This document shows positions 4,360 through 16,678 of a stretch of DNA of 64,000 nucleotides, piece after piece. Origin of the DNA: Prosthecobacter gellanilyticus (GTDB lineage Bacteria > Verrucomicrobiota > Verrucomicrobiia > Verrucomicrobiales > Verrucomicrobiaceae); assembly GCF_007992435.1 (NCBI RefSeq), contig NZ_BKAG01000015.1, positions 1 to 64,000 of the forward strand. The letters run 5' to 3'. Numbering within the stretch: the stretch's first letter is position 1; every line of letters begins with the position of its first letter. The position numbers and the translations under genes were made by a program. The notes beneath the pieces were generated by a model. It was not told where the DNA came from and did no database searches. It saw nothing but the letters and a program-made list of their open reading frames with translations.

Positions 4360-5664
4360 TTAAGCGAAGATGTCGATGACTGGCACGCCCTTGTCGCCGA
4401 CCGTGAACGGACGGTTGGAGGGGGACATGACGACTTCGTCCACAGGGAGACCCATGGCGTGACCGACGGTGGCCAGGAAGTCGGAAGGGCTGGTCTGCTT
4501 GTCGGCAGGACGGCGGCCTTCTTTGTCCGTGGAACCATAGGCGTAACCACCTTTGACACCACCACCGGCGAGGACCGTGGAGTAGGCGAGAGGGTAGTGG
4601 TCACGGCCATCGTTTTCGTTCACGTCCGGCGTGCGGCCGAACTCAGAACCGAGGATGACGAGCGTGGACTCAAGCAGACCCTTGGACTGGAGGTCCAGAA
4701 GCAGCGCGGAGAACGCGGTGTCCAGGGTGTTGCCGTTGTTGGTCATCGCGTTGTCGATGGTGTTGTGCATGTCCCAGCCACCCATCTGAACTTCCACGAA
4801 ACGCACACCGCTCTCAACGAGACGGCGGGCGAGGAGACAGCCCTGGCCGAAGTTGTTGCGGCCATACTTCTCACGAGTCTCAGCGGTTTCCTGGGTCAGG
4901 TCGAAGGCCTTGAGGTCTTCGCTCTTCATGAGCTTGAGGGTCTCGTCGTAGAACTCGGTGTAAGCCTTCACATCTTCCGTCTGGAACTTCTTGCGGAAGT
5001 TGGTGTCGAACTCGTCCATCAGGCCGATGCGCTTCTTGAACTGCGTGTCGCTCGCCGTAGGGGCGATGTTCTGCAGGCCGTTTTCTGGATTGGAAATCGG
5101 CACTGGAGAGGTGGCAGGCGGGAAGAAGCCGGCGCCAGGATAGGCGCTGCCGCTGTTCACGACCACGCTGTCCGGGAGGGTGACGTCCTTGATGCGGCCC
5201 AGGAAGTGGGTGCCCCATGCACCCATGGCAGGGTGAACGATGGTGCCGCGAGGCTCATAACCCGTCTTCATGATGTAGGTGCCAGCCTCATGCACGCCAG
5301 TCTTGGAGGACATGGAGCGGATGATCGAAAGCTTGTCAGCGTTCGCAGCCAGCTTTGGCAGGTAGCCACCGAGGGAGACGATGTTGTCACCCTTGGCGCG
5401 GCACGGAGTGCCAAAGCCCTTCGTGGCGCCTTCCTTCGGATCGAAGGTGTCGATGTGGGTCATGCCGCCGTTCATCCAGAGATAGATGACGTGTTTGGCC
5501 TTGCCGAAACCGGGGGTGCCCGGGCCGGACTTGGACACAGCCTCAGCGGCGGCCATCTTCGCGGAAATGCCGGGAAGAAGGGTCACTCCGAGGGCGGTTT
5601 TGGCCGTGTTCAGCATGAACTGACGACGGTTGGCGTCATTGAGACGGAGGAGTTCGGTTTTCAT
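4360..5664 (-). CDS. DUF1501 family Tat-exported protein
   Basis: 434-aa DUF1501 protein (PF07394), an alkaline-phosphatase-superfamily relative of unknown substrate that is very abundant in Planctomycetota and Verrucomicrobiota. The N terminus carries a twin-arginine signal (NRRQFMLNTA followed by a hydrophobic stretch). YLWMNGGMTHIDTFDPK, the family hallmark, sits near residues 60-77. Later blocks include ARRLVESGVRFVEVQMGGWD and LVILGSEFGRTPDVNENDGRDHY with candidate metal ligands. It is the second gene of an operon, 58 bases after the DUF1549/DUF1553 gene. These two families are routinely paired and probably act together at the cell surface. The molecular role is unknown. Confidence 0.9.
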   Translation of the reverse strand: MKTELLRLNDANRRQFMLNTAKTALGVTLLPGISAKMAAAEAVSKSGPGTPGFGKAKHVIYLWMNGGMTHIDTFDPKEGATKGFGTPCRAKGDNIVSLGGYLPKLAANADKLSIIRSMSSKTGVHEAGTYIMKTGYEPRGTIVHPAMGAWGTHFLGRIKDVTLPDSVVVNSGSAYPGAGFFPPATSPVPISNPENGLQNIAPTASDTQFKKRIGLMDEFDTNFRKKFQTEDVKAYTEFYDETLKLMKSEDLKAFDLTQETAETREKYGRNNFGQGCLLARRLVESGVRFVEVQMGGWDMHNTIDNAMTNNGNTLDTAFSALLLDLQSKGLLESTLVILGSEFGRTPDVNENDGRDHYPLAYSTVLAGGGVKGGYAYGSTDKEGRRPADKQTSPSDFLATVGHAMGLPVDEVVMSPSNRPFTVGDKGVPVIDIFA

Positions 5665-5722
5665 GGGTGGAATTGAGTCTGAAGGTTCGTTGAGTGTTTG
5701 AGCAAAGAGGTGGGATCAGCGA

Positions 5723-7915
5723 TTACTGGATGAACATGAACTCGCGGGTGTTGATAAGAGCCCAGATCATGTTGGCGTAGCCTTCGCCCTGGCCGAGGAC
5801 GCGCTTGGCGGTGTCCTTCTCGTTCACCGAGGGTTTGCGGCTCAGGATGGAAAGGAACATGGCGTCCACTTTCTCAGAGGGATCACGAACCTTCTCAATC
5901 GTGCGCAGGATGGGGGACTCATCGCTGGTCAGCATCTTCTGCGCCTTGCCGTTCATCATCATGAGCACCTGGGGAACGTTGCCGATCTTGGTGCTGCCGT
6001 CGATGAGGTTACGAGGGCTCTGGCCGAAGTCGGTCAGGAAGTGACCGCCAGGAGCGGGCTGCGGAAGTTCCGCGGCGCGCATGAGGCGGAGGCCTTCATA
6101 GGAGATGATCTTGCCTGGGCCGTCCGTGGCAGCCACGTCCTCTTTTTTGGTCGTGGTAGGGCGGGTGGTCTTTTTGTCCATCATCATCATGTCATCCACG
6201 TCATCCAGGCTGCCACCCATCAGAGCGCGCTCTTTCGCAGCCATTTTGCGGAAAGCGTCATATTTGATGAGGACGGTCTTGGCATCGACAGTGTCGAGGT
6301 TCAGGTCGATGGACTTGGCGTAGAGGTCCTGGAGAGGAGCCTTGTAGGTGTCTGGCTTGTCCAGCACCATGGTCATGTAGCTGTCCCAGGCCTGCTCAGC
6401 GCTCATGCGGCGCAGCATAGGTCCCTGGAAGTAGTACTTGTCACCCATCGGGATGTTCTCGGAGGTCACCTCGGCGTTGTAAGCGCGTGTGTTGTACACG
6501 ATGCGCATGAACTCCTTGAGGTTGAACTTCACGCGAACCATTTCAGAAGCGAGATGCTTCAGAAGCTCTGGGTTGGTGGAGTTGCTCGGATCGTCGATGT
6601 TGGTCACCGGCTCGTTGACGCCAGCACCGAAGGCGCGCTTCCACAGACGGTTGGCGATGGTCATCGCAAAGCGTGGGTTCTCAGGATGGGTCATCCACTG
6701 AGCGAACTTCGTGCGGATATTCTCGTCCGTGGCACCCTTGTAGGCTGGGGTTTCCGTGTCGGTCGGGGACCAGGTCACGAACTTCGGCGACACCATTTCA
6801 TTCGGGGCACCGTCCTTGTATTTGTAATCGTGAGGGAGCTTCAGGGTGCTGGCACCGCGATCTTTCACGGCAGCGCGATTGGCGCCGATGTAGTTCTGGA
6901 TGCCATTGCGCAGACGACGGATGTCGAGCTCTGGGTTGGCGGCGACCATCTTCTCGATCTCCTCCATCAGCACCTTGCCGCGGTCACCATTGGCGAAGTC
7001 ACGACCACCAAGGCGGGTGGTGGTGCCCCCGAAGAAAGCGGCCATTTCATAGAACTGGCGCTGGGTCCAGTCAGCGAAGGGGTGGTCATGGCACTGGGCA
7101 CAGGCCACGTCGGTGCCGATGAAGACCGTCAGCGTGTTGGCCAGGTTGTCCAGAGGCATGCCGCTGTCGCGGAGGAGGTAGCCAGCAGCGCCATTGTAGG
7201 TGCCATCAGGCTTCTTGTCCCACATCTTGCCGGTGGCGGTGATCATGTCATAGACCATCTCATTCCAGGGACGGTTCTTGGCGATCTGCTCCTTGAGCCA
7301 GCCGATGTAAGGTGTGCCACGCACGTTGTCCTGCTCGAAGTCGTCCTTCACGCGAAGCATCTCGGCGAAGTAGTTGTAAAGATGGGTCTTGGCGCCATCG
7401 GTCTCCAGAAGCATGTCGACCAGCTTGCTGCGCTTGTTGCGGTCAGAGCTCTTGATGAAGGTGGAAGCCTCTTCGAAGTTCGGGATGCGGCCGGCGATGT
7501 CGAGATACACACGACGCACAAAGTGGTCGTCGGTGGACACCGGGTTGAAGCCCTTCAGAGGAGCACGATTGCTCTTCACGCGGTCTTCATTGCCACTCAT
7601 GATGCCATTGTAGACCAGGGTGTCCACCACCTTGGCAGCCTCGGCAGCTGGCATGTTGGCGGAGACGGCCGGAGCTGCTTCAGCCTTGGCGGCCTTGGCA
7701 AACGCCTGATCCTCAGCGGTCAGGACAGCCAGCGGGAAGCGGTGCTCGGTGGCGTCAGCCGTCCTCAGGACGACATTTTCACCTTCGATACGGACGAAGG
7801 AGGCATTGACTTGGCGGCCCTGGGAGTTCGTCCAGATGCGCAGATCTGCGCCGGAGGCAGACAGGCACATGCTGGCGGCCAGGATGCCTGCAAGCAGTGT
7901 AGGTTTGGTCTTCAT
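5723..7915 (-). CDS. DUF1549/DUF1553 secreted protein with SHD1 domain
   Basis: 730 aa. Sec signal peptide at residues 1-23, then an SHD1-like domain (WTNSQGRQVNASFVRIEG, about residues 24-75). Next come a DUF1549 (PSCyt2) domain, with a CxxCH heme-type motif CAQCHDHPF, and a C-terminal DUF1553 (PSD1) domain from about residue 370 to the end. The CxxCH suggests covalent heme c. The protein is first in an operon with DUF1501. The pair is recurrent in this phylum group; proposed roles concern polysaccharide handling, but no activity is established. The leader upstream of its ATG is CTCCTCCACCCACACCC, without a Shine-Dalgarno. Confidence 0.9.
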   Translation of the reverse strand: MKTKPTLLAGILAASMCLSASGADLRIWTNSQGRQVNASFVRIEGENVVLRTADATEHRFPLAVLTAEDQAFAKAAKAEAAPAVSANMPAAEAAKVVDTLVYNGIMSGNEDRVKSNRAPLKGFNPVSTDDHFVRRVYLDIAGRIPNFEEASTFIKSSDRNKRSKLVDMLLETDGAKTHLYNYFAEMLRVKDDFEQDNVRGTPYIGWLKEQIAKNRPWNEMVYDMITATGKMWDKKPDGTYNGAAGYLLRDSGMPLDNLANTLTVFIGTDVACAQCHDHPFADWTQRQFYEMAAFFGGTTTRLGGRDFANGDRGKVLMEEIEKMVAANPELDIRRLRNGIQNYIGANRAAVKDRGASTLKLPHDYKYKDGAPNEMVSPKFVTWSPTDTETPAYKGATDENIRTKFAQWMTHPENPRFAMTIANRLWKRAFGAGVNEPVTNIDDPSNSTNPELLKHLASEMVRVKFNLKEFMRIVYNTRAYNAEVTSENIPMGDKYYFQGPMLRRMSAEQAWDSYMTMVLDKPDTYKAPLQDLYAKSIDLNLDTVDAKTVLIKYDAFRKMAAKERALMGGSLDDVDDMMMMDKKTTRPTTTKKEDVAATDGPGKIISYEGLRLMRAAELPQPAPGGHFLTDFGQSPRNLIDGSTKIGNVPQVLMMMNGKAQKMLTSDESPILRTIEKVRDPSEKVDAMFLSILSRKPSVNEKDTAKRVLGQGEGYANMIWALINTREFMFIQ

Positions 7916-8736: not shown

Positions 8737-8743
8737 AGTGCCC

Positions 8744-10141
8744 ATGAAACGCCTTTTCTCCTTCGGCAAACGAGCCCCCACACCGCCCCCGCGGGTGCCG
8801 TCTGCCTCTGAAGGAGTGCCAGGCTGGTCACCGAACCAGAGCTACCCCACGCCCCAGGAACTGACCCAGATGATGCCCGGCGGCGTCTACCAGCTCGACC
8901 TGCAGATCGGCCTGGGCGGCATGGGCGCGGTGTACCGGGGGCGGCACTTGCAGCTAGGCCGCGCCATTGCCATCAAGATCCTCCACCAGCATCACGGCAC
9001 GGACTACGCCTATGCAGAGCGCTTTCGCCGCGAGGCCCAGGCGATGGCGCAGATGAACCACCCTAACATCGTCAGCGTCTATGATTTCGGCATCGTGGGA
9101 GAGTATCTCTACTACGTGATGGAGTTCATCCAGGGCATCGACCTGCATCAAAGCATCTGCCATGGCACCACCCCGCCGCTGAAAGCCATCGACATCATGG
9201 TCAAGGTCAGCGATGCGCTCACCTACGCGCACTCTCAGGGCATCGTGCACCGGGACATCAAGCCCGCGAACATCCTCCTGGCGGAAGACGGCCGTATCAA
9301 GGTCGCCGATTTCGGCCTCGCGAAGCGTTTCGACTCCCAGCTGACCATGCTCACGCAGACGAACATGGCTATGGGCACGCCGGACTATGCCGCTCCGGAG
9401 CAATACGACTCCAAGGCGGAGATCGACCCGCGCGCGGATATCTATGCCCTGGGCGTGGTCTTTTACCAGATCCTCACCGGCCTGCTGCCGCGCGGCTCCT
9501 GGCACCCGCCCTCGGCCATCAGCGGCTGTGACACACGCATCGATGCGGTCATTCTCCGCGCCTTGAAGCCCGAGCGCGAGCAGCGCCAGCAGTCCGCGGA
9601 GGAGTTCAAGAACGAACTTTTGGCTATTCTTGTCGCTCCTGCGGCTCCCGCCCCAGCAGTGCCAGCCCCTTTCTCTCAGGTTCCTCAAACCGCCAGCCCT
9701 GCCAACCGTCCGGCCTCTGTCGCCAAGCCTTTTGCGGGCCGGATCCTGGTCCTGGAAGATGACGTGCTGCTGCGGAACCTGATGAGCCGCACGCTGAAGA
9801 AGGAAGGCTACGAGATCGTCGAGACCTCGGACGGCAGCGACACCGTGAAAGCCTACAGCGAGGCCTTGCTGGCGAAGCGACCCTTTGACCTCGTGCTCAT
9901 CGACCTCACCATTCCGCTCGGCATGGGCGGCGCGCGGGCCATGCAGTTGCTTCGTCAAACCGATCCTCAGGTGGATGCCATCGTCTCCAGCGGCAACCGC
10001 TCGGATCCCGCCATGCTCCAGCCCAGCGCCCATGGTTTCGCCGATGTGCTGCCAAAGCCCTATGACAGCGAAGACCTCGTGCGCCTGGTGAAGCTCGTGG
10101 TCGAACGCCGCCGACAGCGCCTTGGTCAAACCACCGCATGA
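8744..10141 (+). CDS. Serine/threonine protein kinase fused to a C-terminal receiver domain
   Basis: 465 aa. Residues 48-298 form a bacterial PknB-type kinase: glycine loop IGLGGMGAVYRG (55-66), Lys78, Glu97, catalytic HRDIKPANILL (Asp171), DFG 189-191, APE 218. A Pro/Ala-rich linker (299-330) leads to a CheY-like receiver (333-460) with acidic pair Asp339-Asp340, phospho-acceptor Asp387 in LVLIDL, Ser415/Ser416 and Lys438 in LPKPYD. All key residues of both domains are present, so both are probably active. There is no transmembrane helix, so it is cytosolic. This fusion could link His-Asp and Ser/Thr signalling. ATG 8744 was preferred over an in-frame GTG two codons earlier. It shares 4 bases with the next gene. 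Confidence 0.93.
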   Translation: MKRLFSFGKRAPTPPPRVPSASEGVPGWSPNQSYPTPQELTQMMPGGVYQLDLQIGLGGMGAVYRGRHLQLGRAIAIKILHQHHGTDYAYAERFRREAQAMAQMNHPNIVSVYDFGIVGEYLYYVMEFIQGIDLHQSICHGTTPPLKAIDIMVKVSDALTYAHSQGIVHRDIKPANILLAEDGRIKVADFGLAKRFDSQLTMLTQTNMAMGTPDYAAPEQYDSKAEIDPRADIYALGVVFYQILTGLLPRGSWHPPSAISGCDTRIDAVILRALKPEREQRQQSAEEFKNELLAILVAPAAPAPAVPAPFSQVPQTASPANRPASVAKPFAGRILVLEDDVLLRNLMSRTLKKEGYEIVETSDGSDTVKAYSEALLAKRPFDLVLIDLTIPLGMGGARAMQLLRQTDPQVDAIVSSGNRSDPAMLQPSAHGFADVLPKPYDSEDLVRLVKLVVERRRQRLGQTTA

Positions 10142-10323: not shown

Positions 10324-10395
10324 GGGTGCAGATCGAATAGGTGCATGAGCGGTTCAACCGGTCATGAAGCACCATCCCAAACGTTTCATCAGTTC

Positions 10396-11883
10396 ATGCG
10401 CCGCACTGTCATCTCCTGCCTCCTGTCATGCCTCCTCCTCACGCAGGCAGGCATGTCAGCGCCTCCCAACGTCTTGCTGATTTTAGTCGACGACCTCAAG
10501 CCCGCGCTCGGCTGCTATGGTGACAGCGCCGCAAAGACCCCGAACATCGACCGCCTGGCCTCACGCGGCATGCGCTTTGACCTCGCCTACTGCAACCAGG
10601 CAGTCTGCGCGCCCTCGCGCTTCACCCTCATGCTCGGCGCACACTCGAGCTCGACGGGGCTGTATCACCTCGGCAGCCGTTTGCGCCAGCAGTGGCCAGA
10701 GGCCGTGACCCTGCCGCAGCACTTCGCCAAGCATGGCGGCTACCGCACCGAGTCCGTGGGCAAGATCTTCCATACCGGCCATGGCAATGAGGGCGATCCG
10801 CAGTCCTTCAACACCGAGCCTTATAAGGACAAGGTCATCGAATACCTCGATCCCGCGAGCACAGACGGCGGCCAGCTCACCCGCGAAGAAGCTCTTTTCA
10901 CTAACCAAAAGCTTGATCAAATCCCCAAGCTGCCACGGGGTGCCGCTTTCGAATTTCCTGATGCCAAGGACGACGACTACGCGGATGGACGTGTGGCATC
11001 TGAAGCTGTCAAAAGACTTCAAGAAGCGCAGAAACGCCGGCAAAAGGACGGCACGCCCTTCTTCATCGCCACAGGCTTTGTGAGACCTCACCTGCCCTTC
11101 TGTGCGCCGAAGAAATACTGGGACATGCATGATCCGTCCAAGCTGCCGATGCCGGCCTTTGAAGAGCTGCCCGCAGGCTCGCCGAAGGTCGCGCAAAAAC
11201 GCGGTGGCGAGATCGTCGCCTACAAACCTGTGCCGGAGAAGGGAGACGCTGAGTTCTCACCCGAGCTCAAACGCCAGCTCATCCACGGCTACTATGCCGC
11301 CACCAGTTATGTCGATGCACAGATCGGTCGCGTGCTTGATGAGCTTGACCGCCTGGATCTCGCGAAGGACACGATCATCGTGCTCTGGGGAGATCATGGC
11401 TTCCACCTGGGAGACCTCGGCATCTGGACCAAGCACACGAACTATGAGCAGGCGAACCGCATCCCCCTGCTCGTCATCGCTCCAGGGATCGCGAAGCCTG
11501 GCAGCAGCACACGGCAGCTCGCGGAGAGTGTGGACGTCTTCCCCACGCTCGCCGAGCTCGCCGGATTGCCTGCCCCCCGCGGACCCCAGCCTGTCGATGG
11601 CCTGAGCCTGGTGCCCGTGCTCAAGGATCCTGCGGCACGTGTGCGTGATCACGCCTATCACTGCTACCCCAAGGAAAAGCTCGGCCGCGCCATCCGCACG
11701 GAGCGCTACCGGCTTGTGGAATGGAAGCAGGTCGGTGCGCCACCAGAGAGTGCCGTGATCGAGCTCTACGACTACGAGCGCGATCCCCATGAAACTCGCA
11801 ATCTTGCCGCCGAGCAACCGGAGGTGGTTAACCAACTTCGTGGCATTTTGGCGAGGCATCCCGAAGCACGGCCAACGCGCTAA
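10396..11883 (+). CDS. Iduronate-2-sulfatase-like secreted sulfatase
   Basis: 495 aa. Signal peptide at 1-21 (RRTVISCLLSCLLLTQAGMS), then metal site LVDDLKP and formylglycine site CAPSR (Cys71). HFAKHGGYRTESVGKIFH and GFVRPHLPFCAPKKYW are characteristic of iduronate-2-sulfatase-type enzymes (IDS-like subfamily of family S1). WGDHGFHLGDLGIWTKHTNYE carries the second metal site. It probably removes 2-O-sulfate from a uronate or similar sugar in the periplasm or at the surface. ATG 10396 was chosen because it begins directly at the signal peptide; an upstream ATG at 10345 would add 17 polar residues. It precedes the thioredoxin-protease fusion by 66 bases. Confidence 0.9.
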   Translation: MRRTVISCLLSCLLLTQAGMSAPPNVLLILVDDLKPALGCYGDSAAKTPNIDRLASRGMRFDLAYCNQAVCAPSRFTLMLGAHSSSTGLYHLGSRLRQQWPEAVTLPQHFAKHGGYRTESVGKIFHTGHGNEGDPQSFNTEPYKDKVIEYLDPASTDGGQLTREEALFTNQKLDQIPKLPRGAAFEFPDAKDDDYADGRVASEAVKRLQEAQKRRQKDGTPFFIATGFVRPHLPFCAPKKYWDMHDPSKLPMPAFEELPAGSPKVAQKRGGEIVAYKPVPEKGDAEFSPELKRQLIHGYYAATSYVDAQIGRVLDELDRLDLAKDTIIVLWGDHGFHLGDLGIWTKHTNYEQANRIPLLVIAPGIAKPGSSTRQLAESVDVFPTLAELAGLPAPRGPQPVDGLSLVPVLKDPAARVRDHAYHCYPKEKLGRAIRTERYRLVEWKQVGAPPESAVIELYDYERDPHETRNLAAEQPEVVNQLRGILARHPEARPTR

Positions 11884-11949: not shown

Positions 11950-14067
11950 ATGAAGACGATCCTGACCACCTTCTGCCTTGTCGTGCCCGCATTGCTCAGC
12001 GCTGAAGACATCCAGCTCGACTGGCAATCCCAGGGCTTCAGCTCCAAGATGGGTTACTACAAGCCCATCCGCGCCGCGCTCTCTACCGAGAAGCCGGCGA
12101 ATGTCACCCGCCTGCCTGAAGACCTCTCCTCACCGCAATTCGGCAACCTCCCTTTCGGTCCTCAGGACCAGGAAAAGAAGGTCGTTCTCCTGATCGACAC
12201 CGCTTCCTCCGGCGAGCAACGGCTTTGGGTGGATGCCAATCACAATGGCGATCTGACGGATGATCCTGCCTGTGAGTGGACGGCGCGCAGAAGCGGCTCT
12301 GGTGACCAGCCGCTGACCACCTACTCCGGCAAGGCCCAGGTGAGGCTTCCCGCCGGCGAGCAGCCTCGCGACTACACCCTGCAGATGTATCGTTTCGACC
12401 CGAACGATCCCAAACGTCCCTCCCTGAAAAACACCCTTCTCTACTACCGGGACTTCGGCCTTTCCGGCAAGGCACAGATCGGTGAGAAGACCTACAGCGC
12501 CGTGATGACGGATGACTCCGCTCGCGGCCTCTTCAGTGGTCCAGGAAGCGATGCCGTCATCGGACTCGACCTCAATGATGATGGCAAGTTCGACTCCAGA
12601 TCCGAACGCTTTTCCGTGAACGAGCCCTTCAACATCGGCGGCACGACTTATGAGATCGCGGGATTGAAGCCCGAGGGCGGCGCCTTTCAGATCGTGAAGT
12701 CAGACAAGGTCGTCGCGGAGAAAGCCGTGCCCAAGGCCATGAAGAGCGGCGTTCAGGTCAGTGACTTTGAAGACAAGACCACCACGGGCAAGCCCGTGAA
12801 GTTCCCGCAGGACTACAAAGGCCGCATTGTCATGCTCGACTTCTGGGCCACCTGGTGCGGCCCCTGCATCGCCGAGCTTCCCAACCTAACCAAAGTTTAC
12901 GAAGAGTTTCATGGCAAGGGTTTCGACGTGCTCGGCGTGAGCCTGGATGATGAGCGCACGCTGCCCAAGCTCGCCAAGTTCACGGAAGACAAGGGCATGG
13001 TCTGGCCGCAGATCGCTGATGGCCAGGGCTGGGATGCGCGGCTGGTGCAGATGTATGGCGTGCGCGGCATTCCCGCCTGTTTCTTGGTGGATGGCAATAC
13101 CGGCAACCTCATTGCCGCCGAAAACGAGCTGCGTGGAGCCAGGCTTCGTGAGACCGTTGAGCGCGCCATCGCCAGTCTCGGCAAAGCGGCCCCTGCCCCA
13201 CATGAGATCCCCAAGAAAACGGCAAAGACTGCAGCTCCGGAAAAACCAGAGCCAGAGAGCCCGCTTGTGACCAAGGCACGTGAGATGACGAGCCAGGGCA
13301 AGCTGCCGAAAGCCGCTGCCTTTCTCGATGCGCTCAAAACTCCGACTCCAGCGAAGATCACTCCAGCCAAGCCTTCAACCGAGACTCTGACCGGCCGACA
13401 AATCGCCGCCCGGGCCCAGGCAGCGCATGTGCGCGTCGGCTGGCTCTATCAATGCACCAAATGCAGCCGCTGGCACACCACACTGGCTGGCGGCTATGCC
13501 ATCTCCAACGACGCAGTCGTGACCGCGCACCACGTCATGGATGCCCCACCTAACATGAAGGATGGTCACGGGCATCCTGTGATCGTCCGGGGTGAGGATG
13601 AGATCCTGCCCGACCTCACCGTGATCGCCGCAAATCCAGACGATGACGTCGTCATTCTCCGCACAGGCGTGAGTGATTTGAAGCCTCTCGCGATCCTGGA
13701 TGATGTGCAGGTGGGTGACAGCGTCTTCTGCCTCAGTGACCCGCGCGGCGTGCGTGACTACTTCAGCACCGGCATCGTCAACCGCGCCTTTGATCTTGAT
13801 CCTGCCACAAGCAATGGCCGCAAAGGCAGGCGCCTTCATGTCAGCACGGACTGGGCCCAGGGCAGCAGCGGCTCCGCTGTGCTCGATGCACAAGGCAACG
13901 CCATCGGTCATGTCTCACGCATCAGGGCTCTCCCAGGGGCAAAGCCGGATGCTGAGTCCGATGCCCCCACCGCCATGAACCTGCATGAGGCCATCCCCGC
14001 GAGCAGCGTGCTGAAACTCCTCCTGAAGCTGGAGGCAAAAACCCCCGCTCAAGTGGAAACTCGATAG
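11950..14067 (+). CDS. Secreted thioredoxin (TlpA-like)-trypsin-like protease fusion
   Basis: 705 aa with a Sec signal peptide (1-18). The N-terminal domain (about 19-255) has two Ca-binding-like loops, DANHNGDLTDD from Asp95 and DLNDDGKFD from Asp207, and is otherwise unrecognised. Residues 265-395 are a TlpA/ResA-type thioredoxin with active site WCGPC (Cys303, Cys306) and the cis-proline region GIPACFL. After a Lys/Pro-rich linker, residues 480-690 form a trypsin/HtrA-like serine peptidase: VVTAHHVMD (catalytic His 527/528), DDDVVILRT (Asp), QGSSGSAV (Ser640). The whole triad appears present. There is no PDZ domain. A redox-plus-proteolysis role in the periplasm is inferred; nothing is known of this exact architecture to me. 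It lies between two sulfatase genes. Confidence 0.9.
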   Translation: MKTILTTFCLVVPALLSAEDIQLDWQSQGFSSKMGYYKPIRAALSTEKPANVTRLPEDLSSPQFGNLPFGPQDQEKKVVLLIDTASSGEQRLWVDANHNGDLTDDPACEWTARRSGSGDQPLTTYSGKAQVRLPAGEQPRDYTLQMYRFDPNDPKRPSLKNTLLYYRDFGLSGKAQIGEKTYSAVMTDDSARGLFSGPGSDAVIGLDLNDDGKFDSRSERFSVNEPFNIGGTTYEIAGLKPEGGAFQIVKSDKVVAEKAVPKAMKSGVQVSDFEDKTTTGKPVKFPQDYKGRIVMLDFWATWCGPCIAELPNLTKVYEEFHGKGFDVLGVSLDDERTLPKLAKFTEDKGMVWPQIADGQGWDARLVQMYGVRGIPACFLVDGNTGNLIAAENELRGARLRETVERAIASLGKAAPAPHEIPKKTAKTAAPEKPEPESPLVTKAREMTSQGKLPKAAAFLDALKTPTPAKITPAKPSTETLTGRQIAARAQAAHVRVGWLYQCTKCSRWHTTLAGGYAISNDAVVTAHHVMDAPPNMKDGHGHPVIVRGEDEILPDLTVIAANPDDDVVILRTGVSDLKPLAILDDVQVGDSVFCLSDPRGVRDYFSTGIVNRAFDLDPATSNGRKGRRLHVSTDWAQGSSGSAVLDAQGNAIGHVSRIRALPGAKPDAESDAPTAMNLHEAIPASSVLKLLLKLEAKTPAQVETR

Positions 14068-14120: not shown

Positions 14121-15758
14121 ATGAACTTCTTGCCGATCGCCTGCCTTCTCCTGGCCCTCACCCTTTCCCTCCCTGCCGCTGACCGTCCAAACGTCCTCGT
14201 CATCCTGGTGGATGACATGGGCTTCTCGGATCTCGGCTGCTATGGCAGTGAGATCCCCACACCGAATCTGGATGCGCTGGCGCAAGGTGGCGTACGCTTC
14301 ACGCAGTTTTATAACACGGCCCGCTGCAGCACCACACGGGCTTCGTTGATGACAGGCCTCTATCCGCATCAGGCGGGCATGGGTTATCTGGATGGATTGA
14401 AACTGCCCGAGTCCAAAGGCACACATGCGAAGCTCGAGGATCGCTGCGTGACCATGGCCGAGGTGCTTGGCGGCGCAGGTTACCACACCTCCGTCGTCGG
14501 CAAATGGCACCTCGGCCAGCAGAACGGCAGCGTGCCGTGGGAGCGCGGCTTTCAGCGCACAGCGACGACCCAGTTTGGCGAGCTCTATTTCCCGAAGGAG
14601 CGCAGCAAGGATGCGTGCAAGTGGGTCTATCTGGATGGTCGCAAAGTCGCGGCAGATTCACCGGAAGTCGGCAGCGGCGAATGGTACTCGACCTTCATGT
14701 TCACCGACTGGGCGCTGAAGTTCCTGGATGATGCGAAGGCCAGTGGGAAACCCTTCTTCCAATACTTCGCACATGGTGCGCCACACTTCCCGCTGAAGGC
14801 TCCGCAGGACGTGATCGCGAAGTATCGTGGCAAATACAAGATGGGCTGGGACAAACTGCGCGAGGCACGTCATCAGAAGCAAATTGAGTTAGGCATTGTG
14901 GATGCCAAATGGCCGCTGTCACCTCGTCCGAAAGATGTGCCTGCCTGGGATTCTCTGAGTGAGGAGGACAAGGACCGCTATGATCATCTCATGGCCATCT
15001 ACGCGGCCATGCTCGACTGCGTGGACCAGAGCGTCGGCCGCATGATTGCTGGCCTCAAGGAGCGCGGCATGTATGGGAACACGCTGATCCTTTTCATGTC
15101 CGACAACGGTGGCAATGCCGAAGGCGGTCCACGAGGCATCAGCGAGGGTGAACCTCTGGGCGGCCCCGAGAGCCATGTCTTCCTCGGCATGACCTGGGCC
15201 ACGCTGAACAACACACCCTTCCGTCGCTACAAGCACTTCACGCATGAAGGCGGCATCTCCTCACCGCTCATCGCGCACTGGCCAGCCGGCATTCCTGCCG
15301 CACGCCACGGCAAGCTCGAGCATCAGCCCTCGCATCTCATTGATATCATGACCACAGCCTGTGATGTCAGCGGCGCCATCTATCCCTCCGAATTCAAAGG
15401 TCATGCCATCCTGCCTGCCGAAGGTCTTTCCCTCATGCCTGCCATCCTCGGAGAGCCGCTGCACCGCGTGAAGCCCATCTTCTGGATGCATGAGGGCAAT
15501 CGCGCCGCACGCACCGGTCCCTGGAAGCTGGTGAAGAAGTTCAAAGGGCCATGGGAGCTCTACAACATCGACGAAGACCGCACCGAGCAGAATGACATCA
15601 TCACCAAATTCCCCGCCATGAGCCAACACCTCATCCGCCAATGGGAAGATTGGGCCGCCACGACCTATGTCGATGAATGGATCGGCCAGGTCCGCAATGA
15701 CTGGGGCGATGAGATCCGCGCCGATGGTGCCAAGAAGAAGAAAGCCAAGGCTAACTAA
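14121..15758 (+). CDS. Arylsulfatase-type secreted sulfatase with CSTTR active-site variant
   Basis: 545 aa, signal peptide 1-20 (cleavage near PAADR). Metal site LVDDMGFSDLGCYG, then CSTTRASLMTG: the formylglycine Cys69 is kept and Arg73 is kept, but the usual proline of CxPxR is threonine. VVGKWHLGQ and MSDNGGNAEGG (second metal site) are intact. The C terminus is a lysine-rich tail (DGAKKKKAKAN), also seen in the sulfatase at 24701. Arylsulfatase A/choline-sulfatase-like family S1; substrate unknown. It ends 4 bases from the convergent DUF1080 gene. ATG 14121 starts directly at the signal peptide. Confidence 0.9.
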   Translation: MNFLPIACLLLALTLSLPAADRPNVLVILVDDMGFSDLGCYGSEIPTPNLDALAQGGVRFTQFYNTARCSTTRASLMTGLYPHQAGMGYLDGLKLPESKGTHAKLEDRCVTMAEVLGGAGYHTSVVGKWHLGQQNGSVPWERGFQRTATTQFGELYFPKERSKDACKWVYLDGRKVAADSPEVGSGEWYSTFMFTDWALKFLDDAKASGKPFFQYFAHGAPHFPLKAPQDVIAKYRGKYKMGWDKLREARHQKQIELGIVDAKWPLSPRPKDVPAWDSLSEEDKDRYDHLMAIYAAMLDCVDQSVGRMIAGLKERGMYGNTLILFMSDNGGNAEGGPRGISEGEPLGGPESHVFLGMTWATLNNTPFRRYKHFTHEGGISSPLIAHWPAGIPAARHGKLEHQPSHLIDIMTTACDVSGAIYPSEFKGHAILPAEGLSLMPAILGEPLHRVKPIFWMHEGNRAARTGPWKLVKKFKGPWELYNIDEDRTEQNDIITKFPAMSQHLIRQWEDWAATTYVDEWIGQVRNDWGDEIRADGAKKKKAKAN

Positions 15759-15762
15759 CCAA

Positions 15763-16551
15763 TCACTTCTTCTCCAACGACATCAGCTCGATCTTCCGGA
15801 ACCACACGGGCTGGCCCTCCGCCTGAAGTGCGATGTGGCCATAACCCAGCTTCACATCGCCACCCGCATCCGTGATATCCTTCGCCGGAGCGATGGTGCA
15901 TGCCGGATCCAGCACCGGGCGCTGATAGCGCAGCACCTCGACTCCATTGATGCGGTGAATGATCTCGTCATGGCCGCGCACCTCCACCTCTGCACGCACC
16001 CATTCCTCCGCAGGAAAAGTGGATGAGCTCGATTTGGCGATGTGCTTGGTGAAGAGCTCGCCTGCCATCTCGACATGCGTGCCCGGCGTGCACAGATTGC
16101 CCGTGGGCCTCGCGCCTTTGCCTTCATCCGCCAGAAACTGCATTTCCAGGCTTGATGGGAAACCCTGATCAAAGCGCATGCTCTGCGGCGGCTGCGCATG
16201 CAGCATCACGCCACTGTTGAGGTTCACATACTTCGGCGCATCCGCCATCATCCTGCCGGTGAAGCGATACTCCATCCGCAGGACATAATGCGAGTAGGCG
16301 AGGTTGGTGAAGAGGTGCCCATACTGCTGATCGAACTTCTCGTAGCCATCGTAGCTCACCTTCAGGATACCTTCCTCAACACGGAAGGTGTTTGCAAAAT
16401 TCTCTCCCAACGGGTGCTTGGCGATCTTGATCGTCCAGCCACTCAAATCCTTGCCATTGAAGAGTGAAATCCACTTTTCTTCCTCAGCGGCGGCAGAGGC
16501 TGTGAGCACACTCCAAAGGGCGAGCACGGCAAGGCGGGAAAGGTTGGTCAT
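15763..16551 (-). CDS. Secreted DUF1080 (3-keto-disaccharide hydrolase-type) protein
   Basis: 262 aa, with signal peptide NLSRLAVLALWSVLTASAAA. A single DUF1080 domain (PF06439, concanavalin-like fold) opens with ISLFNGKDLSGWTIK, the family signature. It continues with NLNSGVMLHAQPPQ and ends with the strand GHIALQAEGQPVWFRKIEL. Some members cleave 3-keto-glycosides made by partner dehydrogenases; others may only bind sugars. ATG 16551 is preferred to upstream ATGs at 16560 and 16599 because the signal peptide begins there. It is divergent from the AAA+ ATPase gene and convergent with the sulfatase. Confidence 0.9.
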   Translation of the reverse strand: MTNLSRLAVLALWSVLTASAAAEEEKWISLFNGKDLSGWTIKIAKHPLGENFANTFRVEEGILKVSYDGYEKFDQQYGHLFTNLAYSHYVLRMEYRFTGRMMADAPKYVNLNSGVMLHAQPPQSMRFDQGFPSSLEMQFLADEGKGARPTGNLCTPGTHVEMAGELFTKHIAKSSSSTFPAEEWVRAEVEVRGHDEIIHRINGVEVLRYQRPVLDPACTIAPAKDITDAGGDVKLGYGHIALQAEGQPVWFRKIELMSLEKK

Positions 16552-16678
16552 AGTGGGCATCTTGCCGTGATGCGCCATCTTTCCAATCAGAACCTGCATG
16601 GTTCATGAAGCGCCCCACAAGGCCGAAAGGATAAAATGAGTCTGGCTAAAATCAGGCGGCTTGATCATTCTGACTGGG

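Follow-up and report, generated by a model that had tools for sequence, protein, structure and literature searches.

The window, a stretch of 64,000 nucleotides from Prosthecobacter gellanilyticus taken here at its full length, carries at 11950-14067 (+) one open frame of 705 amino acids, as the initial annotation had claimed, plus a stop codon, with zero internal stops. A putative TTG start lies 27 bases upstream of ATG 11950, and a signal-peptide-like stretch begins straight after this ATG. From the N to the C terminus, the product consists of a signal-peptide-like start, an all-beta N domain, a TlpA-type thioredoxin and a protease of the HtrA fold. The gene is flanked by two sulfatase genes (10345-11883 and 14121-15758), with a Cys in the active-site motif as judged by eye. 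Two genes upstream (8738-10141) lies a Ser/Thr kinase that ends in a response-regulator receiver domain, and two genes downstream (15763-16599) a 3-keto-disaccharide hydrolase. The features of the protein, each with its basis, are the following:

11950..12003 (+), residues 1-18: predicted signal peptide, read from the sequence (K near the start, LLSA ahead of the mature part)
12007..12705 (+), residues 20-252: all-beta N domain (41-row alignment A2; model)
12232..12264 (+), residues 95-105: conserved DxNx(D/N)GDLT(D/N)D loop (41-row counts)
12568..12606 (+), residues 207-219: second DxNx(D/N)G loop, with Glu219 (41-row counts)
12733..13179 (+), residues 262-410: TlpA/ResA-type thioredoxin (Pfam, PDB sequence search, VIA)
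12853..12867 (+), residues 302-306: WCGPC redox site (TlpA alignment)
13072..13080 (+): cis-Pro375 and the nearby Cys377 (TlpA alignment)
13180..13260 (+), residues 411-437: flexible linker (pLDDT <50 at 417-431)
13261..13338 (+), residues 438-463: short helical segment (helices 438-448 and 455-463 in the model)
13393..14043 (+), residues 482-698: HtrA-like chymotrypsin-fold protease without PDZ (Pfam, PepD/DegP sequence matches, fold matches)
13453..13476 (+): CxxCxxxH motif (C502, C505, H509) in the beta1-beta2 turn, at the LA-loop position
13531..13533 (+): predicted catalytic His528 (59/59 protease domains; aligned with the His of HtrA NNHV)
13645..13647 (+): predicted catalytic Asp566 (59/59; aligned with the Asp of PepD SDIAVVR)
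13729..13731 (+): Cys594, in the CLSDP strand (45/59 protease domains)
13867..13869 (+): predicted catalytic Ser640, in GSSGS (59/59 protease domains)

A hydrophobic stretch starts at residue 4 (Kyte-Doolittle 2.2 across 15 residues), and the 705-aa protein is presumably exported to the periplasm. The AlphaFold model of the whole chain has a mean pLDDT of 89.8 and a pTM of 0.64; this pTM and the low-confidence linker fit two tethered, independent domains. The helical segment behind the linker goes with the protease module, as it is matched in stand-alone proteases too. A frameshift or a chimeric assembly joining two genes is ruled out, since the identical layout is found in separate records of relatives. 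The TlpA-type thioredoxin and the HtrA-like protease are domains of a single polypeptide.

The assignment of these two domains, first proposed from the letters of the window, was borne out by Pfam (AhpC-TSA and Trypsin_2) and by structure matches for both. For the thioredoxin, announced as a complete TlpA-type domain with WCGPC and Cys303/Cys306, the AhpC-TSA match covers 267-383 (E 4e-20, above cut-off), and residues 262-410 superpose on the Bacteroides thiol-disulfide oxidoreductase 3fw2 (VIA Z 20.5, rmsd 1.7, 143 residues). The W, both C and the P of the redox site are present in 54/54 TlpA rows and G304 in 51/54, and cis-Pro375 is likewise invariant (54/54). The domain thus has the thioredoxin fold with CxxC and cis-Pro that marks the TlpA/ResA type at the fold level; its curated NCBIfam scores lie below the cut-offs (ResA 75 bits against 170, TlpA 58 against 230, DsbE 45 against 123), as they do for each of the 25 NCBIfam models listed. 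Two residues past cis-Pro375, position 377 is Cys in 20/23 protease-fused rows versus 1/31 unfused rows, a contrast that ignores kinship; one further three-domain protein outside this count (L129) has Ala there.

In the C-terminal domain, Trypsin_2 is matched at 515-653 (E 2e-16, above cut-off), and by VIA the domain resembles HtrA1 (best Z 22.0), DegS (21.8) and DegP (21.3), with Foldseek matches too. A sequence match to PepD (Rv0983; E 1e-8) aligns His528, Asp566 and Ser640 with the HtrA triad. A peptidase fold with aligned triad residues, on which the earlier reading of this part depended, is therefore present: the histidine left there as 527 or 528 is 528, an invariant column, and not 527, a variable one; Ser640 holds; and the aspartate, previously unnumbered, is Asp566. 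The triad is intact in 59/59 distinct protease domains. The combination of chymotrypsin fold and His-Asp-Ser triad is that of an HtrA-like (S1C-type) protease. No PDZ domain was found by Pfam at E 1, and the last predicted element of the 705-residue chain is a helix at 684-697. The scores against the DegP-like Do protease model (TIGR02037, 20.5 bits, cut-off 416) and the MarP family serine protease model (NF033740, 23 bits, cut-off 250) are far below the curated ones. Without PDZ and with such scores, the window protease is not a canonical HtrA; by analogy, it very likely works like one.

Modelled in isolation, the N domain has a pLDDT of 95.7 and a pTM of 0.90. Foldseek matched nothing in the PDB at E 0.001 or below, and VIA reached a Z of at most 4.1; a known fold could thus not be assigned, although a new fold is not proven thereby. 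Pfam GEVED (PF20009, cut-off 24.4 bits) is no more than a marginal match: it scores 21.1 bits on this domain in the whole protein and 24.7 when the domain is scanned by itself, with 56/233 residues covered, and it is matched at E 0.01 in 11/41 N-domain members. The two 'Ca-binding-like' loops of the initial annotation do exist as conserved motifs. In the first, D95 and D105 occur in 41/41 rows and N97, G100 and D101 in 40/41; in the second, D207 is found in 41/41, E219 in 40/41 and G212 in 36/41. At the motif level these are EF-hand/dockerin-type, DxDxDG-like loops with conserved acidic positions (Pfam EF-hand_5 is matched in 1/41 members), and both probably bind metal. The most likely role of the domain is to dock the enzyme or to hold its substrate. 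It is a widespread module, confidently predicted in structure and without a clear PDB match.

The same three-domain order, which it had been suggested to look for in other Verrucomicrobiota, occurs there and also in one MAG labelled Planctomycetaceae. The comparison covered 11 distinct proteins with all three domains and 13 with TlpA and protease but no N domain, nearly all from Verrucomicrobiota. In a scan of genome contigs, the best 80 of 210 confirmed relatives comprised 5 three-domain loci (L007-L011), 9 TlpA + protease loci (L012-L016, L018-L021) and 66 loci with N+TlpA, partial or other forms. Within the window's family, the protease is found at E 1e-10 or better in 39/68 genomes, of which, as told from open-frame length and read ORFs, 8 carry all three domains and 11 TlpA plus protease. 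A stand-alone protease, about 310-366 aa long, is found in many genomes of the family, alongside a fused form or on its own; the window's genome contains the fused form only. An N-domain profile run across the order found 17/288 genomes (at most 10 candidates scored per genome, so that absences are soft): 9 with three-domain proteins, one of them in another family (L129), 6 with kinases and 2 with N+TlpA. At phylum level, with absences equally soft, the full protein at E 1e-40 found 5/387 genomes (at most 2 candidates per genome), namely the window's own, two with kinases (G046, G014), one with a stand-alone protease (G377) and one with a TlpA-only match (G209), and hence no further three-domain protein under these settings; the protease profile found 25/387 at E 1e-12 or better (at most 7 candidates per genome). 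Seven of nine genomes chosen from the contig scan match at E 1e-8, strongly only in those of L011 and L012, moderately in that of L063 and weakly in the other four. Several genomes in the two collections are identical or near-copies, and their counts are not additive.

Proteins made of N+TlpA alone, found in MAGs whose labels are mainly Planctomycetota and also Armatimonadota-type and Verrucomicrobiota, share the N domain and TlpA with the window protein (about 32-46% identity in the best segments); unlike it, they stop shortly past TlpA and mostly lack C377 (1/31). In a 797-aa protein (L056:3300-5690), N+TlpA is followed by some 400 aa that match Sortilin-Vps10 weakly and look like a BNR-type propeller. 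Genome G003 has an open frame of 1113 aa (L139), 747 aa of which are covered. This part comprises a 3-keto-disaccharide hydrolase domain, a hydrophobic segment and, terminally, an N domain, with no TlpA; it belongs to the second N-domain protein of G003, beside its three-domain one.

For these comparisons, alignment A1 used 63 chosen rows of 107 (the window and 106 references), and 10 duplicate rows were removed ahead of a 35-row tree. The table of 59 protease domains leaves out L141, L167 and L168, which were already included, and 12 weaker matches with E above 1e-28 (L162-L164, L166, L169-L173, L176-L178), treated as ordinary HtrA/trypsin-like proteases. Domains were counted as without TlpA (n=34) when a short ORF was read from its start or the ORF held no WCxxC pattern.

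Of the 25 fused proteases in the 59-row tree, 24 group together (99/93), with stand-alone proteases branching around them. The remaining fusion, a 607-aa protein without CxxCxxxH (L160:361-2181, genome G272), falls outside this group on a long branch, and a single clade of all 25 fused proteins is rejected (p-AU 1e-5). Its layout, with TlpA at 56-165, about 250 residues without Pfam match and the protease at 415-550, occurs in 1/56 genomes of its family; L160 is apparently a TlpA-protease fusion of separate origin, as far as the tree tells. Within the main group, L014, which has no N domain, is placed among three-domain proteins. Its three upstream genes match those of the three-domain L010 in order and at 90-95% identity, meaning that these close relatives differ by an in-place loss, or gain, of the N domain.

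The N+TlpA module is also joined to kinases: six genomes from the window's genus (G046, G014, G048, G038, G013, G017) encode Ser/Thr kinases of 814-841 aa, measured as stop-to-stop ORFs (L117, L118, L131, L132, L135, L136), that have N domain plus TlpA with WCxxC as their C-terminal half. A single hydrophobic segment separates the two parts in 6/6, so that the module presumably sits outside the membrane, and these proteins are possible redox-sensing kinase receptors. This arrangement suggests sensing and is a point in favour of the idea that, in the fused protease too, TlpA is an oxidase, an isomerase or a redox sensor steering the protease rather than a reductase of substrates. We consider that idea improbable. 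The window's genome encodes a complete DsbD (DsbD_N, DsbD_TM and thioredoxin; L121), DsbB and VKOR were searched for in this genome and not found, and WCGPC is the motif of reducing thioredoxins.

The neighbours of the gene point to no partner. Eight window neighbours were compared by tblastn with 43 loci of fused or stand-alone relatives, whose flanks were covered up to 4 kb in 14 and about 1.5 kb in 29; the sole match was the kinase, in L020, no locus has a gene order in common with the window, and the flanking sulfatases were not found beside relatives within these flanks. Pfam assigned 19 neighbour ORFs in 10 loci (L008-L012, L014, L015, L018, L020, L021) to mixed families (GAPDH, AAA/RuvB-like, TPR, RNase PH, MFS, histidine kinase and others), two ORFs having no family. 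An operon or pathway with the flanking genes is thus not supported. A 3-keto-disaccharide hydrolase (PF06439) does adjoin the TlpA-protease gene in three loci (L015:5342-6235, L018:3213-3851, L020:4754-6040), which, with the copy near the window gene, counts against the absence of any conserved neighbour; these three gave no tblastn match to the window's copy. In L021, the TlpA-protease gene adjoins one (5298-7655) whose 786-aa product ends in an AhpC-TSA (TlpA-like) domain. A strict WCxxC pattern, applied to 35 loci with their short flanks, revealed no stand-alone protease beside a separate TlpA gene; its single match was the L160 fusion itself.

The protease domain carries cysteines of its own. 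In the model, strands 493-502 and 508-517 are joined by a turn that contains C502 and C505, and the alignment to a DegP-like protein starts just past C505. Both cysteines are present in 55/59 protease domains (in L161 with four residues between them), both are missing in 3/59 (L144, L146, L160), and the pair is split in one (L011, without C505); H509 is found in 57/59. C594 varies independently of the pair and is missing in 13 domains that retain it. Redox cysteines specific to the fusion were considered and are not supported, as stand-alone relatives carry CxxCxxxH too: the pair occurs in 23/25 TlpA-fused domains, L011 and L160 being the exceptions, and in 32/34 others. On these counts CxxCxxxH belongs to the protease family and not to the fusion, with which it did not arise.

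According to PMC4339722, the LA loop of E. coli DegP spans residues 38-79 and contains a Cys57-Cys69 disulfide that lowers activity; cysteine-less DegP cuts a peptide faster (Vmax 1.13 vs 0.44), and human thioredoxin 1 reduces the LA disulfide in vitro. By analogy, a C502-C505 disulfide could hold the window protease off until the attached TlpA reduces the pair and turns the protease on, stand-alone relatives being switched by a separate thioredoxin-like protein. The position of C502/C505, the joint presence or absence of the two cysteines in 58/59 domains, their retention in most fused proteins and the enrichment of C377 in fused forms all agree with such control in cis, which we regard as a serious candidate and a close rival of the explanation preferred below, possible though on balance doubtful. 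A switch made by the fusion is weakened by the pair being equally common where TlpA is absent, and by the two fused proteins that lack the complete pair. Moreover, the C377 contrast takes no account of kinship and fails in L129, and H509, conserved along with the pair, would fit a metal site no less well.

Such a site, structural, binding zinc and unrelated to TlpA, would leave two enzymes that merely share an export/docking domain. It would account for the conservation of H509, for the presence of the motif regardless of fusion and for the joint loss of both cysteines in L144, L146 and L160, accompanied in 2/3 by that of the His. Only three ligands are evident, however, and C594, the obvious fourth, varies independently (45/59); L146 keeps the His without Cys, and L011 one Cys with the His. 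The long-retained pairing of TlpA and protease, which persists in L014 in the absence of the N domain, argues furthermore for a functional link. We therefore hold this alternative to be unlikely.

The explanation that we prefer, tentatively and at somewhat less than an even chance, is a secreted (periplasmic) quality-control enzyme that first reduces and then cuts envelope proteins. An inner-membrane thiol donor such as DsbD would keep the TlpA domain reduced; TlpA would open the disulfides of envelope proteins that are misfolded or wrongly oxidised; the HtrA-like protease, on its flexible linker, would degrade the loosened chain; and the N domain, with its two acidic loops, would dock the enzyme or hold the substrate. 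The reducing direction, the electron donor, the disulfides of the substrate and the coupling of both activities are thus inferred. This reading is supported by the invariance of the redox site, of cis-Pro375 and of the triad, by the retention of the pairing in the 24 distinct fused proteins of one group, and by L014, which keeps TlpA and protease without the N domain in an otherwise collinear region. It is also supported by the full DsbD and by L160, whose protease lacks CxxCxxxH, as expected if TlpA acts on substrates and not on the protease. Against it stand the neighbouring genes, which indicate no redox or quality-control pathway, the failure to find DsbB and VKOR, and the presence in the same genomes of proteases without any TlpA. 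In addition, the L160 fusion is one ORF from one genome on a long branch, and N+TlpA exists alone and on kinases, so that TlpA may be a sensor.

The layout common to relatives suggests a built-in link between disulfide opening and protein breakdown. A broader version, in which TlpA is a built-in reductase of the CxxC that replaces the LA loop, one polypeptide senses the redox state of the envelope, unlocks its protease and reduces substrates before cutting them, and N+TlpA gives redox input to the Ser/Thr kinases of sister species, seems to us rather unlikely. The parts belong to known families; their combination is not named in the open-licence literature searched, on such fusions, redox-linked proteases and periplasmic reductants, among the matches listed. 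As a natural single-chain version, the protein would open the coupling between disulfide reduction and proteolysis to direct tests in vitro, and the N+TlpA cassette extends beyond protease fusions to membrane kinases.

Compared with known systems, the thioredoxin domain resembles the TlpA/ResA/DsbE oxidoreductases in its TlpA/AhpC-TSA fold, WCGPC and cis-Pro, and matches the ResA, TlpA and DsbE models; it differs in scoring under the curated cut-offs and in sharing its longer chain with a protease. The protease shares with HtrA/Deg enzymes (DegS, DegP, PepD/Rv0983, HtrA1) the chymotrypsin-type double barrel and the His-Asp-Ser triad (Z about 20-22), and with DegP the presence of cysteines in the LA region. 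Unlike them, it has no PDZ, is joined covalently to a thioredoxin and the N domain, and has an LA loop cut down, in the monomer model, to the tight CxxCxxxH turn; PepD and the DegP-like protein have GNSGG where it has GSSGS. In PMC4339722 and PMC3446894, HtrA protease and thioredoxin meet functionally as separate proteins. In the latter (Synechocystis, spinach), PsbO, stable when oxidised, turns into a substrate of the Deg protease HhoA upon reduction by thioredoxin. This is a precedent in trans for reduction followed by cleavage: there, as proposed here, the protease can cleave its substrate once this has been reduced by thioredoxin, with two proteins doing what one chain would do in the window protein.
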